Assembly: GCA_003140785.1 (NCBI GenBank)
Contig: PLKY01000255.1
Coordinates: 1-34,572 of the forward strand
Reading direction: 5' to 3'
Length of the DNA: 34,572 nt
From: Acidobacteriaceae bacterium
GTDB taxonomy: Bacteria > Acidobacteriota > Terriglobia > Terriglobales > Acidobacteriaceae
Below the pieces are notes generated by a model, which saw only the letters and a program-made list of their open reading frames with translations, did not search any database and was not told the origin of the DNA. Below, one piece after another: positions 1-33,270 of this stretch. A program made the translations under genes and the position numbers. Every line of letters begins with the position of its first letter. The first letter of the stretch is position 1.

Positions 1-28
1 AAAACCCTGAATCCCTTTCGTAAAAAAT

Positions 29-70
29 CAGTTCTCAGTTCTCAGTTCTCAGTCGTCAGTTCTCAGTTTC
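29..70 (+). repeat. Heptamer array CAGNNNN x6, plus orientation
   Basis: Six consecutive 7-bp units, mostly CAGTTCT, run from 29 to 70: three CAGTTCT, one CAGTCGT, one CAGTTCT and a last CAGTTTC. The period is 7, not a multiple of 3, so it is not coding. It faces a reverse-oriented array at 116-143, and TCAGT in one arm can pair with ACTGA in the other. Confidence 0.85.
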
Positions 71-115: not shown

Positions 116-143
116 ACTGACTACTGATTACTGACGACTCACT
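116..143 (-). repeat. Heptamer array x4, minus orientation
   Basis: Four 7-bp units, ACTGACT, ACTGATT, ACTGACG and ACTCACT, read on the plus strand. On the minus strand they read as CAGTNNT units. The array begins directly at the stop codon of the minus-strand small ORF that ends at 143. It is the reverse-oriented partner of the array at 29-70, 45 bp away. Confidence 0.75.
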
Positions 144-451
144 CAATAGTAGGCGTAAGCCTTCAAATACCTCTGCCGCAGTTCCTGCGGCACCTTCTCC
201 ACCAGCCGCAAATACCGTTCGCGGGTCAACGCCTGATCCGAAACCGGCAACGCCGCATACAACGCCGGAGCCTCTTTGCCCAGAAATCCGCGCTTCAGAA
301 TCGTCTCGTAATCGCGGATTCGCAGCTTTGCCCGCTTCACGCGGTTCAACAGGACTTCAACGTCCCGCACATCAAACGCCGCATCAAACAGCGAGTGAAG
401 CTTCGCGTATCCCTTTTCATCCTGAACCGCGATCGCTGCCTGCTCGAACAT
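143..451 (-). CDS. Small conserved-looking hypothetical protein
   Basis: The likely protein is 102 residues long. The ORF track begins at a TTG codon at 472, but an ATG at 451 has AGGAG four bases upstream and is preferred. The protein is soluble, charged and probably mostly helical, with many Arg, Lys and Glu residues, no signal peptide and no membrane segment. It ends in an aromatic-rich tail (KAYAYY). It lies just downstream of tRNA-Gly on the same strand, so it may be co-transcribed with the tRNA cluster. I do not recognise a family and assign no function. Its stop codon runs directly into a heptamer array. Coding status is supported by the full-length frame and the ribosome binding site, not by a known domain. 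Confidence 0.6.
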   Translation of the reverse strand: MFEQAAIAVQDEKGYAKLHSLFDAAFDVRDVEVLLNRVKRAKLRIRDYETILKRGFLGKEAPALYAALPVSDQALTRERYLRLVEKVPQELRQRYLKAYAYY

Positions 452-493
452 CTTTCTCCTGGCCTCAAACAAACTTCTCGACTCTTCAAACTC

Positions 494-568: not shown

Positions 569-576
569 CCTGAAAA

Positions 577-611
577 CAGTCGTCAGGCATCAGCGGTCAG
601 GGATCAGTCAT
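577..611 (+). repeat. Heptamer array CAGNNNT x5, plus orientation
   Basis: Five 7-bp units: CAGTCGT, CAGGCAT, CAGCGGT, CAGGGAT and CAGTCAT. The array starts 8 bp from the 5' end of tRNA-Gly. Only CAG at positions 1-3 and T at position 7 are constant. It faces a reverse-oriented array at 652-682. Confidence 0.85.
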
Positions 612-651
612 TCGTGCAGTTCGAAGCCGCTTCAATCCTACCGAGCCTCAA

Positions 652-682
652 CTGACCCCTGTTCCCTGACCCCTGTTCCCTG
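652..682 (-). repeat. Heptamer array x4.5, minus orientation
   Basis: On the plus strand the units are CTGACCC, CTGTTCC, CTGACCC, CTGTTCC and a final CTG. On the minus strand they read CAGGGAA, CAGGGGT, repeated. The array starts 6 nt after the encoded CCA of tRNA-Thr(GGT) in the transcript. With the array at 577-611 it fills most of the gap between tRNA-Thr and tRNA-Gly. Confidence 0.85.
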
Positions 683-688
683 CATCTC

Positions 689-1112: not shown

Positions 1113-1201
1113 TGGTGCACAGGGGAGGATTCGAACCTCCGTAGCTCGCAAGGAGCGGCAGATTTACAGTCTGCTGCCATTAACCGCTCGGCCACCTGTG
1201 C
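1113..1201 (-). tRNA. tRNA-Tyr(GTA)
   Basis: A class II tRNA of 89 nt with an encoded CCA. The acceptor is GCACAGG pairing CCTGTGC, the anticodon stem-loop is GCAGACTGTAAATCTGC with anticodon GTA, a long variable arm lies between the anticodon and T arms, and the T-loop is GTTCGAATCC. The long variable arm and GTA anticodon make the assignment secure. Confidence 0.96.
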
Positions 1202-29549: not shown

Positions 29550-30051
29550 GGGTTGCGCCTGAGGGTGTCCGGCTGTGGACATACGGATGGAAGTGGCAAC
29601 CCCTCTTTGCCATTTCGCCATTCCCGCGTTCTCCACATGACGGAGGTAACAACGCGGCCTCGGATTCGCCGCAAATTCGCTTGTAGAGCGCTGCCAACGC
29701 TGCTCCTCTTAAGACAAATGGACCGCACGCTCTCCACCTTATTAACGGTGGCCAAATTGCATTGGGAGTTTGACCACAAAGCGTGAGCGGGCAGAAAAAG
29801 AAACGCGGTTTTTGATTGAATCTTATCTACATTGGCCCTGTCGCAAGGCTGGACCGAAATACACGTTTTACCTACTACGGCAATCCTTCCATCCCGGATC
29901 TGAATTTGATTTGAACGATTGCGGATGTATTCCTGACGGAGCGACGTGTCGCATTTTCATGGTCCGAGCGAGTGTCCATGCGGCATGGAAGCGATGCGGC
30001 GAGCGGCTGATCCCGTCGCACATTGAACGGAACGAACGGGAGCGAGGAAGC
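29550..30051. other. Gap before the Ig-repeat lipoprotein gene
   Basis: A 502-bp gap. A small hairpin CCACC...GGTGG lies near 29736-29753. The in-frame extension upstream of 30052 (track start 29770) has no family signature and is not supported. I see no riboswitch pattern. It probably holds the promoter and 5' leader of the lipoprotein gene. Confidence 0.55.
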
Positions 30052-32163
30052 ATGCGAAGGATTGGCTTTTGTCTCGTGCTGGGAGTTGCGGCTTTTCTGT
30101 CTGGATGCGGTTCCTTCATTGTTAGCTCCTCGAAGACCGGCACACTGGCGATCACCACCTCCGCGCTTCCCGGAGCGATTGTTGGCGTCGCGTATAGCAG
30201 CACTGTTGTGGCTTCTGGGGGCACAACTCCTTACGCCTTCAGTGCGACTGGGCTGCCCAGCGGGCTCACGATCAACAGCACGACCGGCGCGATTACAGGA
30301 ACACCGGCGCAAAGCGCAGTGGGCACCGCGTCCGTCGCGGTTAAGATTACTGACTCGGGTTTGCCGCCACAGTCTGCGAAGGCGACGCTCAGCCTGACAG
30401 TGAGCGCGGTGCCAGCGAACACGCTGACCATCACCACAACTTCTCTTCCCAACGGAACCATCGGCGCACCGTACAACGGGACCATCACAGTCACGGGCGG
30501 CTCTTCGCCCTTCAACTTCAGTGCGACGGGATTGCCGACTGGGCTCTCGATCAACGCGACGACCGGCACGATCTCCGGCACCCCTACACAAAGCACCGCC
30601 GGAACAGCCAACGTCACGATCACGGTGACGGATTCGACAAGGCCCACTGCCCAGACCACAACGGCTTATCTCAGCCTCACGATCGGTGCGGGACAGTCGG
30701 GCACACTGGCCATCACAACATCGTCGCTGCCGTCAGGAACGGTGGGTGCCTCGTACAGCGGCACGATAACTGCGACGGGGGGCACAGCGCCTTATGCGTT
30801 CACCGCGACCGGATTACCGAGCGGTTTCACCATCAATGCGACATCGGGAACAATCACGGGAAATCCCACCCAGGCTGATGTGGGACCGACTTCAGTGACA
30901 GTCACGGTGACGGATGCAACCCAGCCCACAGCACTGTCGGCATCGGCGACTCTGAACCTGACCATCGAAGCCGCAGGATCAGCTTCGGCGTGCACCCAGA
31001 TGAGCACGGGCAATAACGCCAGTCTCAACGGCTTCGTTCCCTTCCCATCAACAAGCGCATGGAACACCGATATCTCGCAAGCTCCACTCGACCCGAACAA
31101 CACCGCAATCACATCAGCCTCAGGATTTGCCGGAGAGCATCTGCATCATGATTGGTCGTCGGTGGCCGGCGGCAACTACGGCATTCCCTACGTTGTCGTC
31201 GATTCGAGCAACACGCCGCTGGTCCGCATCGACGTGGTCTCCTACGCCAGTGAAAGCGATGTCGCCCAGGCTCCATTCCCCATCACTGCACCGATTGAAG
31301 GCTCCCCGGCGGATTGCACGGGCGGCCCGAATAATTATGTTGGAGACCAGCACGTGCTCGTGCTGGATCGCAACGCGTGCATGCTCTACGAAACATTCAA
31401 TACGGTGCGTTGCAACGGAGCCTGGAGTTCGGATTCGGAGACGATTTGGGACTTGAAGAATTATGAGCAGCGTCCCTGGGGATGGACGTCGGCCGATGCC
31501 GCAGGCCTGCCGATTTTTCCAGGGCTGGTGCGGTACGACGAAGTAGCCTCCGGCGCAATCAATCACGCCATCCGCTTCACGTTGCCACACACCAAGAACG
31601 ACGCCAACGGCGGCTACTTTGTGGAACCGGCCAGTCACGCCGCAGGTAACAACTCGACCACGAGCAACGTGATGGGCATGCGCATCCGCCTCAAAGCAAG
31701 TTTCGATATCTCAGGCTATTCCGCGGCCAACCAGGTCATCCTGACGGCGATGAAGAAGTACGGCTTGATCCTTGCCGACAACGGAAGTTATTTCTACTTC
31801 CAGGGCGTACCCGATCCTCGGTGGGACGACAATGATTTGGTCAATCTGGATTCAATCCAGTCTTCCAACTTTGAAGTGGTGCAGATGACGCCCACGTATC
31901 CCGGCTACGACGACGCGACTGCGCCCACAGGAGCGCCTCCCACGATCGGCAGCTTCGCCGCATCGTCAACTTCAGTCACTGCGGGGACACCGGTGACACT
32001 GACTTGGGATACGACGAACGACTCGTATGATTTTATTGATGTACTCGGCGGTGTGAGTGGCGGCAGTGTGAGCGTGAAGCCTGCGGCGACCACGACCTAC
32101 ACGCTGAACGCGACGAATCAATACGGACGATCGACTGCCACGGTGACCGTAACTGTCCACTAA
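30052..32163 (+). CDS. Lipoprotein with three putative-Ig repeats and unknown central domain
   Basis: A 703-residue protein. The start at ATG 30052 has GAGGAAG upstream and gives a lipoprotein signal (MRRIGFCLVLGVAAFLSGCGS) with the lipobox LSGC, so it is lipid-anchored in an envelope membrane. Three putative-Ig (He_PIG-type) repeats follow (about 28-116, 122-213, 216-304), each with the pattern ITT-LP-G--G--Y, FSATGLPSGLTIN, TGAITGTPAQ and an SxTV end. A large domain (about 312-620) has AWNTDISQAPLDPNN, ASGFAGEHLHHDW, YVGDQHVLVLDRNACM and VYDEV-like strands; I do not recognise it. A last Ig-like module (about 627-703) begins PTIGSFAASST. It probably acts in adhesion or binding of polymers. 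No enzyme activity can be claimed. Confidence 0.85.
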   Translation: MRRIGFCLVLGVAAFLSGCGSFIVSSSKTGTLAITTSALPGAIVGVAYSSTVVASGGTTPYAFSATGLPSGLTINSTTGAITGTPAQSAVGTASVAVKITDSGLPPQSAKATLSLTVSAVPANTLTITTTSLPNGTIGAPYNGTITVTGGSSPFNFSATGLPTGLSINATTGTISGTPTQSTAGTANVTITVTDSTRPTAQTTTAYLSLTIGAGQSGTLAITTSSLPSGTVGASYSGTITATGGTAPYAFTATGLPSGFTINATSGTITGNPTQADVGPTSVTVTVTDATQPTALSASATLNLTIEAAGSASACTQMSTGNNASLNGFVPFPSTSAWNTDISQAPLDPNNTAITSASGFAGEHLHHDWSSVAGGNYGIPYVVVDSSNTPLVRIDVVSYASESDVAQAPFPITAPIEGSPADCTGGPNNYVGDQHVLVLDRNACMLYETFNTVRCNGAWSSDSETIWDLKNYEQRPWGWTSADAAGLPIFPGLVRYDEVASGAINHAIRFTLPHTKNDANGGYFVEPASHAAGNNSTTSNVMGMRIRLKASFDISGYSAANQVILTAMKKYGLILADNGSYFYFQGVPDPRWDDNDLVNLDSIQSSNFEVVQMTPTYPGYDDATAPTGAPPTIGSFAASSTSVTAGTPVTLTWDTTNDSYDFIDVLGGVSGGSVSVKPAATTTYTLNATNQYGRSTATVTVTVH

Positions 32164-32175
32164 GAGCGGTTCTAT

Positions 32176-32199
32176 CTGTTCCCTGTTCCCTGTTCCCTG
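32176..32199 (-). repeat. Heptamer array x3.4, minus orientation
   Basis: CTGTTCC three times, then CTG. On the minus strand this is CAGGGAA x3 plus CAG, nearly identical to the array behind tRNA-Thr(GGT). It starts 3 bp after the hypE stop codon. No reverse-oriented partner is visible. Confidence 0.85.
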
Positions 32200-32202
32200 C
32201 CT

Positions 32203-33270
32203 TTAGCAGATTCTCGGCAGCTGCTCGCCAATCTGTGTCGGGATGACGCGATTTCCGCCGATAGAAGTCCGCGCGACCAGCATGCGCTTGTGTTGCGCGG
32301 TCACATGGCCGATGCGCGCGGCATCACGCCCTAACGGATTTGCGCGCAGCACTTCAAGCACGCGGTCTGCGGTCTCTGGAGCGACAAAAAAGACCGCCTT
32401 GCCTTCATTGGCTACATACACGGGATCGAGGCCGAGTAGCTCGCAGGCCGATTGCACTTCCAGCCGCACCGGCAAGGTGGTTTCATCAATCTCGATGCCC
32501 ACATTCGACGAAGTCGCAATTTCATTCAGAGTTGAAGCGAGCCCGCCCCGTGTCGGATCGCGCATCGCATGGACCGCCTCTCCCGCCGCTTTGAGCACTA
32601 CGGCAATCATCCCGTTCAGCGCCGCGCAATCCGACCGAATCTGGCTTTCAAATTCAAGGCCCTCGCGCACACTCATGATCGCCATGCCGTGATCGCCGAT
32701 GGTTCCCGAAACAAGCACCACATCGCCGGGTTGCGCGCGATGCGGGCCAACGTTAACGCCCGGCCGCAGCAAGCCCACGCCTGACGTGTTGATATAGCAA
32801 CCATCGCCGTGCCCGCGCTCCACAACCTTCGTATCGCCGGTAACGATCCGGACGCCCGCCGTAGCTGCGGCATCTGCCATGGCCTGCACGACAGCCGCAA
32901 GCTGCGCCAACGGAAATCCCTCTTCCAGAATGAAGCTAGCGCTTAAATACTTCGGCTCCGCGCCAGAGACCGCAAGATCGTTGACCGTCCCATTCACGGC
33001 CAGCGCGCCGATTGATCCGCCCGGAAAAAACAGCGGCTGCACGACAAAGGAATCCGTACTCATGGCCAGCTTGCCGGGCCCCAGTTCAAACACCGCCGCA
33101 TCGCCCAAATTCTCAAGAGCAGGATTGCGAAAAGCAGGCAGAAATAAGTGTTCGACGAGCTCGTTGCCAAGCTTGCCGCCTCCCCCATGGCCCATCACGA
33201 TGTTCGGATAGCCAACCAGAGGTAGGGGACACGACCAAATCGAAAAGTCGGGCGCGCCGCTCTCAGGCAT
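32203..33270 (-). CDS. hypE: Hydrogenase maturation protein HypE
   Basis: A 355-residue AIRS/PurM-like protein. With HypF it converts a carbamoyl group on its C-terminal Cys to thiocyanate, supplying the cyanide ligands of the [NiFe]-hydrogenase iron. The sequence shows CPLPLVGYPNIVMGHGGGGKLGNELVEHLFLPAF, STDSFVVQPLFFPGGSIG, VNGTVNDLAVSGAEP, RIVTGDTKVVERG, VLVSGTIGDHGMAI and DPTRGGLASTLNEIA, and ends in PRIC, the functional C-terminal Cys. All are standard, and the length is normal. It follows hypD on the same strand, with a 116-bp gap that holds a palindromic repeat. GGAG lies six bases before the ATG. Confidence 0.97.
   Translation of the reverse strand: MPESGAPDFSIWSCPLPLVGYPNIVMGHGGGGKLGNELVEHLFLPAFRNPALENLGDAAVFELGPGKLAMSTDSFVVQPLFFPGGSIGALAVNGTVNDLAVSGAEPKYLSASFILEEGFPLAQLAAVVQAMADAAATAGVRIVTGDTKVVERGHGDGCYINTSGVGLLRPGVNVGPHRAQPGDVVLVSGTIGDHGMAIMSVREGLEFESQIRSDCAALNGMIAVVLKAAGEAVHAMRDPTRGGLASTLNEIATSSNVGIEIDETTLPVRLEVQSACELLGLDPVYVANEGKAVFFVAPETADRVLEVLRANPLGRDAARIGHVTAQHKRMLVARTSIGGNRVIPTQIGEQLPRIC

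Follow-up and report, generated by a model that had tools for sequence, protein, structure and literature searches.

A paired heptamer array between two tRNA genes of an Acidobacteriaceae bacterium and related intercistronic stem-loops in Acidobacteriota

What is an inverted pair of heptanucleotide arrays doing in the gap between two tRNA genes? The pair occupies positions 577-682 of a 34,572-nucleotide stretch of DNA from an Acidobacteriaceae bacterium ("the window", meaning the whole stretch analyzed). Read along the minus strand (494-764), the transcript runs through tRNA-Thr(GGT) (689-764), 6 nt, a CAG array, a spacer of ~40 bp (612-651), five CTG-type units, UUUU, and tRNA-Gly(TCC) (494-568), so that tRNA-Thr is the upstream gene and tRNA-Gly the downstream gene, with spacings of 6 nt and 8 nt, respectively, to the arrays. 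The upstream (5') arm (652-682, minus strand) consists of four and a half units, CAGGGAA CAGGGGT CAGGGAA CAGGGGT CAG, and starts, as read from the sequence, 6 nt past the 3' end of tRNA-Thr. The downstream (3') arm (577-611, minus strand) consists of CTG units, which on the plus strand are the five CAGNNNT units CAGTCGT, CAGGCAT, CAGCGGT, CAGGGAT and CAGTCAT; it is abutted by the UUUU (573-576, minus strand). Within the arms, a 24-nt inverted repeat (584-607 and 659-682) is 83% complementary. The whole 120-nt gap (569-688, minus strand) is predicted to fold into a stable stem-loop of -55.3 kcal/mol, versus -35.5 ± 3.3 kcal/mol for 200 dinucleotide shuffles (z -6.1; no shuffle was as good), and the long imperfect hairpin is kept when the fold takes in both flanking tRNAs. 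Rfam matches in the window are tRNAs only, and the heptamer hairpin matches no family. As a set of intergenic 7-bp repeats capable of forming a hairpin, the element resembles the STRR heptamers of cyanobacteria, a likeness in kind only.

The pair is not the only array in the window. The first-pass annotation described 577-682 accurately but overlooked a second inverted pair at 29-143 and the lone arrays at 1083-1106 and 32176-32199, all on the minus strand. The second pair is of the same kind and lies 3' of the stop codon of ORF 143-472(-), with its upstream arm at 117-133 and its downstream arm at 29-70, followed by a T-run. This ORF encodes a 109-aa protein, without a Pfam match, that adjoins the tRNA cluster genus-wide at 68-80% identity. 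The array at 1083-1106 is a decayed one of three units, 6 nt past the 3' end of tRNA-Tyr(GTA) (1113-1201, minus strand). The array at 32176-32199, three CAGGGAA units and a CAG, begins 3 nt past the stop of ORF 32203-33270(-) and has no partner arm. The ORF is AIR-synthase-related and converges on an Ig-domain protein (29770-32163), the lone array filling the 39-bp gap between them.

Such arrays are abundant across the genome and have a preferred orientation. In the source assembly (5.4 Mb in 436 contigs, 86% complete), the pattern (CAGNNNN)3CAG gave 51 + 49 matches versus 0 + 1 for the reversed pattern. Pairs and spacers of this assembly were analyzed in the ~0.5 Mb of stretches surrounding array matches, and genes were called with a simple custom codon-usage script. 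A three-unit YAG criterion was applied here (reversed-pattern background, 34 versus 104) and a four-unit criterion in a complete relative (6 versus 75). Array neighbors at most 300 bp apart stood in CAG-then-CTG order 26 times and in the reverse order once; in the complete relative the numbers were 17 and 3. All 25 automatically detected pairs of the source assembly with both neighbors called lay between co-directional genes, and one additional pair, found by eye, lay in a convergent gap. The relative had 17 co-directional pairs, 1 convergent and 0 divergent. The pooled pairs (42 co-directional, 2 convergent, 0 divergent; 452, 105 and 106 gaps available) show a modest deficit in convergent gaps (Fisher p 0.008) and a clear one in divergent gaps (p 0.0005). 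For many arrays, no partner arm could be detected. At least two tandem 7-nt units, intergenic enrichment and pairs in one relative orientation are features that these arrays have in common with those of Xanthomonas and Nostoc. A strict co-directional rule was considered and rejected as general, since one class relative (G057) has pairs equally often in convergent and in co-directional gaps. Arrays often lie near contig ends (window 1-70 and eight contigs of the source assembly), which suggests that the repeats break short-read assemblies and are under-counted.

Relatives carry such hairpins too. The tRNA-Gly/tRNA-Thr gap was recovered in 40 genomes of the genus; it is long in 34 and 14-39 bp in the other 6, and both arms were detected in 31 of the 34 long gaps, built from units of the CAGGGA, CAGTGA/CAGTGG, CAGTTC and YAGCTT families. 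Two more distant homologues have gaps of 14-16 bp. The tRNA-gap hairpin is present in cultured Terracidiphilus gabretensis S55 and Occallatibacter savannae AB23, and the element can thus be put to experimental test. In core operons such as S10-spc, the gaps are usually short and conserved. An array-rich region of the complete relative is the str/S10-spc/alpha ribosomal-protein cluster, part of which is also found on a contig of the source assembly, and in 22 genomes 107 gaps of the S10-spc operon carry both arms. A tRNA-specific element can therefore be set aside: the hairpins are intercistronic genome-wide and mostly 3' of stop codons, and the earlier suggestion that they might mark tRNA processing is unsupported as a sole role.

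The position of the arrays relative to gene ends is sharply defined. Two null models were used, a uniform one in which an array may lie anywhere in the gap, and a conservative one that treats the gap as filled by the entire element. The first sense-strand array began 0-6 nt past the stop codon in 30 of 40 gaps of the source assembly (4.1 expected under the uniform and 16.6 under the conservative null) and in 17 of 30 gaps of the complete relative (2.7 and 11.1). Array starts at exactly +3 numbered 13 in the source assembly and 9 in the relative, against 1.2 and 0.9 expected under the conservative null; arrays facing the start codon, scored in the relative, show no comparable peak. In the S10-spc operon, 36 of the 107 hairpins start at +3 with the junction stop-RRG-CAG, and a G is found at +3 in 78% of operon gaps with a hairpin versus 36% of those without a detected pair. 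At the other end of the element, TTTT occurs within 8 nt of the downstream arm in 21 of 97 operon hairpins versus 2.8% of spacer windows, and in the tRNA gap of relatives the downstream arm is commonly followed by a T-run; such runs are frequent but not general. Two outcomes had been named in the first-pass annotation as grounds for abandoning its description, random placement and orientation of arrays relative to genes and their absence from homologous tRNA gaps. Neither occurred, as the orientation counts, the stop anchoring and the 31 two-armed gaps show.

The two arms of a hairpin match each other. Among 138 hairpins (107 from operon gaps and 31 from tRNA gaps), the unit family is the same in both arms in 71%. 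When right arms were permuted, the agreement fell to 45 ± 3% within genomes, 31 ± 3% within gaps and 23 ± 3% overall. Since the observed value exceeds both the within-genome and the within-gap permutations, the arms match at the level of the individual locus and not only at that of the genome or the site. The match extends to the order of the units, in which arms agree better than after shuffling (mean z 0.77, s.e. 0.07). In predicted folds, the right arm pairs with 73% of the bases of the left arm, a share that drops to 52% when right arms are swapped within a genome. In the tRNA gap of 34 genomes, mean local complementarity is 16.7 versus 9.7 ± 0.8 after random exchange of right arms among genomes (20,000 permutations, maximum 13.0). 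The imperfect hairpin with a 7-nt rhythm originally described for the window is thus borne out in both tRNA and operon gaps.

While the architecture stays, the sequence of the operon-gap hairpins turns over between sister species. In three sister pairs (G013/G062, G001/G009 and G004/G017), the flanks and the downstream leader-like sequence can be aligned, and between them whole hairpins are missing or have changed in arms and spacer. When hairpins in the same gap are of different families, their spacers are as unlike as unrelated ones (a fraction of 0.02 lies above the 99th percentile of unrelated spacers). A switch of arm family in place, with the spacer kept, gains no support from this, species distance being a confounder of the comparison. 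The spacers of the source assembly, 612-651 included, are all unique, without a similar copy in the ~0.5 Mb examined. The sister-species swaps and the unrelated, unique spacers together indicate that hairpins turn over as units, in the source assembly without visible donor copies. Other cores, CGTGANN heptamers and RAGTGAAN octamers, build hairpins in the same gaps, so neither YAG nor a 7-nt period is strictly required.

What could produce and keep such elements? The explanation that we favor, with slightly less than even confidence, is that the pair in the window is one copy of a genome-wide set of transcribed intercistronic stem-loops, formed by slippage and template switching and acting on RNA. 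The upstream arm would start a few nucleotides past the upstream gene (~3 nt past a stop codon; ~6 nt past tRNA-Thr), the downstream arm would follow after the spacer, and the transcript would then fold into an imperfect hairpin of tandem units between the two genes. Replication slippage in a 7-nt register would make an arm longer or shorter, and template switching in the foldback would copy one arm into the other, so that the arms stay alike; the match of the arms in family and order points to such copying, with slippage along the arms. Template switching that makes and maintains RNA hairpins has been described (PMC8794818). The hairpin would most likely act on the RNA by setting a boundary for cleavage or stability where two co-transcribed genes meet, an RNase III-type double-stranded site being one example. 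A role at the RNA level is favored by the anchoring at the upstream end, the avoidance of promoters, and pairing that is kept while the sequence changes. Against the favored explanation, several genomes of the genus with very few arrays (G018, G026 and G033) still have the S10-spc operon, so the element is dispensable, and the many arrays lacking a detected partner arm also count against it. The equal frequency of the G057 hairpins in convergent gaps is not predicted by a role in separating co-transcribed genes, and part of the placement could result from purifying selection alone if it keeps neutral tracts in the unoccupied DNA next to genes. We suggest, still more tentatively, that the stop-anchored intercistronic RNA hairpins form a class in Acidobacteriota in which selection maintains nothing but the architecture: arms at ~stop+3, separators in core operons, and matched pairs that are rewritten fast. 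If so, sister species would be expected to bear unrelated sequence at the same site.

Nearly as likely as an RNA role, and a serious possibility in its own right, is that the hairpins have no function. Slippage and foldback switching would make them in any free intergenic DNA, and selection would only clear important sites, namely genes, promoters, ribosome-binding sites and leader sequences. Several observations are well accommodated by such confinement to space: divergent (promoter) gaps are avoided, turnover affects the part near the stop codon and spares the conserved leader-like sequence downstream, and units other than YAGNNNN take up the same gaps. Array number also ranges from a few to several hundred per genome in one genus, and the array-poor genomes are scattered over the ribosomal-protein tree. 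Left unexplained, however, is the peak at +3 with the RRG junction, which rises 10-fold over a null in which the element is limited to free space from the outset, and single arrays that hug the stop codon in long gaps are not predicted. The SbcD profile TIGR00619 found no match in 36 genomes of the genus, whereas 13 of 14 control genomes match. SbcD is a palindrome nuclease, and its loss could make long inverted repeats tolerable; unmatched by this profile in array-rich and array-poor genomes alike, it may be permissive and cannot explain the variation.

A third explanation, unlikely on present evidence, is a non-autonomous mobile element of the MITE or REP kind, with the heptamer arrays as terminal inverted repeats and a transposase inserting it after stop codons. 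It would account for the gain, loss and replacement of whole hairpins between sister species and for the unrelated spacers of different-family hairpins in the same gap. However, the near-identical copies expected of a MITE are seen in G057 only, the ~0.5 Mb of the source assembly having none among its spacers, and the sister-species comparisons, with their short flanks, show no clear target-site duplication. Three-unit haplotypes common to several loci are not clearly above shuffled expectation: 127 versus 71 ± 19 in the source assembly, driven by the GGAA repeat, and 15 versus 11 ± 4 in the complete relative. Two candidate drivers were tried and rejected. The count of Y1/RAYT-type transposases does not follow that of arrays (Spearman 0.17 over 36 genomes), two array-rich genomes (G036 and G042) being without a Y1 match, and neither does the count of reverse transcriptases (Spearman -0.04). 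REP/BIME elements are abundant intergenic hairpins that are avoided in promoter regions; the Acidobacteriota hairpins are alike in abundance and promoter avoidance but lack a conserved REP sequence and a link to RAYT number. The four near-identical copies in G057 (loci L116 and L117, on contigs C5 and C9; core 85-93% identical), possibly a dispersed element, are built of nested, mirrored families, with CAGGTGT outside, then CAGCTNT, and AAGCCNN inside. Such mirror-image arms are consistent with one arm having been copied into the other in a foldback.

Intrinsic terminators or attenuators are improbable. The stem past the stop codon, the purine flank before it and, in part, the T-run after the downstream arm, which is strong in the tRNA gap, speak for them; the element is not the compact GC stem with short loop and T-run that defines an intrinsic terminator, since the loops are large and the T-run is missing in most hairpins, a terminator scan finds none at 569-688, and full termination inside the S10-spc operon would be harmful. 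Slightly more improbable still is that the arrays serve as DNA or RNA binding sites of a protein recognizing YAG at 7-nt intervals. YAG is the core common to the main families, but unit families change at orthologous sites, CGTGANN and RAGTGAAN cores take the same positions, and no candidate protein was found; the protein-binding site suggested earlier for the pair is thereby made less likely if it is to be sequence-specific. G-quadruplexes, proposed for the Xanthomonas and Nostoc arrays that the present ones resemble in placement (PMC4692102), can be dismissed almost entirely as a general cause, since a G-run in every unit is found only in the CAGGGA family (CAGGGAA/CAGGGAT), most families have none, and orthologous sites build the same architecture from CAGTGA, CAGTTC and YAGCTT units.

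Heptamer arrays of this kind have precedents. In Xanthomonas and Nostoc, arrays of ~four GGGAATC or GGGGA(C/T)T units are mostly intergenic, lie between aligned ORFs and are depleted between divergent ones, and a G-quadruplex structure was proposed for them (Rehm et al. 2015, PMC4692102). On the sense strand, they lie close to the stop that ends the upstream ORF (within 50 bp, on average 28 nt), and they differ in length and sequence among related species at the same genes; Xanthomonas has 70-75 inverted pairs per genome, always in one relative orientation (PMC4692102). The Acidobacteriota arrays are alike in their intergenic 7-nt repeats, stop proximity, depletion in divergent gaps, one-way inverted pairs and variation among related species at the same genes. 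They differ in their units, which are mainly YAGNNNN, belong to several families and mostly have no G-run, and in an upstream arm tied to ~stop+3, where the junction is RRG. In addition, unit family and order match between the two arms of a hairpin, and the elements are found in tRNA gaps and in the S10-spc operon. In filamentous cyanobacteria, 7-bp STRR repeats form hairpins between hupS and hupL, a role in transcript stability or translational coupling having been suggested (PMC2670836). Intergenic regions that are variable but structured among close relatives were noted by Jackman and Mulligan (1995, as cited in PMC2670836). By description, the Acidobacteriota elements are similar in their intergenic 7-bp hairpins and variable yet structured gaps; the phylum and the units are different. 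TAACTGA repeats form intergenic heptamer arrays in marine Beggiatoaceae, cyanobacteria and Bacteroidetes (MacGregor 2015, PMC4679880). The reverse complement, TCAGTTA, contains the unit CAGTTAT, of YAGNNNN form, but the Beggiatoaceae arrays are direct repeats just 5' of start codons, with one indirect repeat only (PMC4679880), whereas those of Acidobacteriota are inverted pairs just downstream of stop codons. The inverted pairing, taken at first as an unfamiliar arrangement, had thus already been reported, both for the Xanthomonas pairs (PMC4692102) and for the hupS-hupL hairpins (PMC2670836). A search of open-access papers turned up no account of repeats like these from Acidobacteriota.

The Acidobacteriota hairpins are thus of the same kind as the known heptamer arrays and extend them by non-G families, a +3 anchor, arm matching at the level of the locus, whole-hairpin turnover and presence in core operons. 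If they are functional, they constitute a layer of RNA control invisible to sequence-based RNA searches, because only the shape is kept. If they are neutral, they document in nature, cleanly and at hundreds of loci per genome, how slippage and template switching give rise to RNA hairpins. In either case, the G-quadruplex explanation of stop-proximal heptamer arrays is not general.

Two further observations concern neighboring sequences and a more distant genome. The class relative G050 (loci L232-L234) has CAGCACT/CAGGACT heptamer arrays without stop anchoring or the usual pair orientation. In ribosomal-protein operon gaps (L182 and L197-L216; rplW-rplB, before rplF, rplR, rpsD and others), a conserved leader-like sequence lies downstream of the hairpins, for example CGGAGAAACGGGGAGAGCGGCGC before rplB and GGGCCGGGATGACAT...GTAAACCGGCCG before rpsD. 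Rfam gave no match to these sequences at the gathering score (L182 and L202) or at E 0.5 (L202), and they are possibly undescribed ribosomal-protein leaders.
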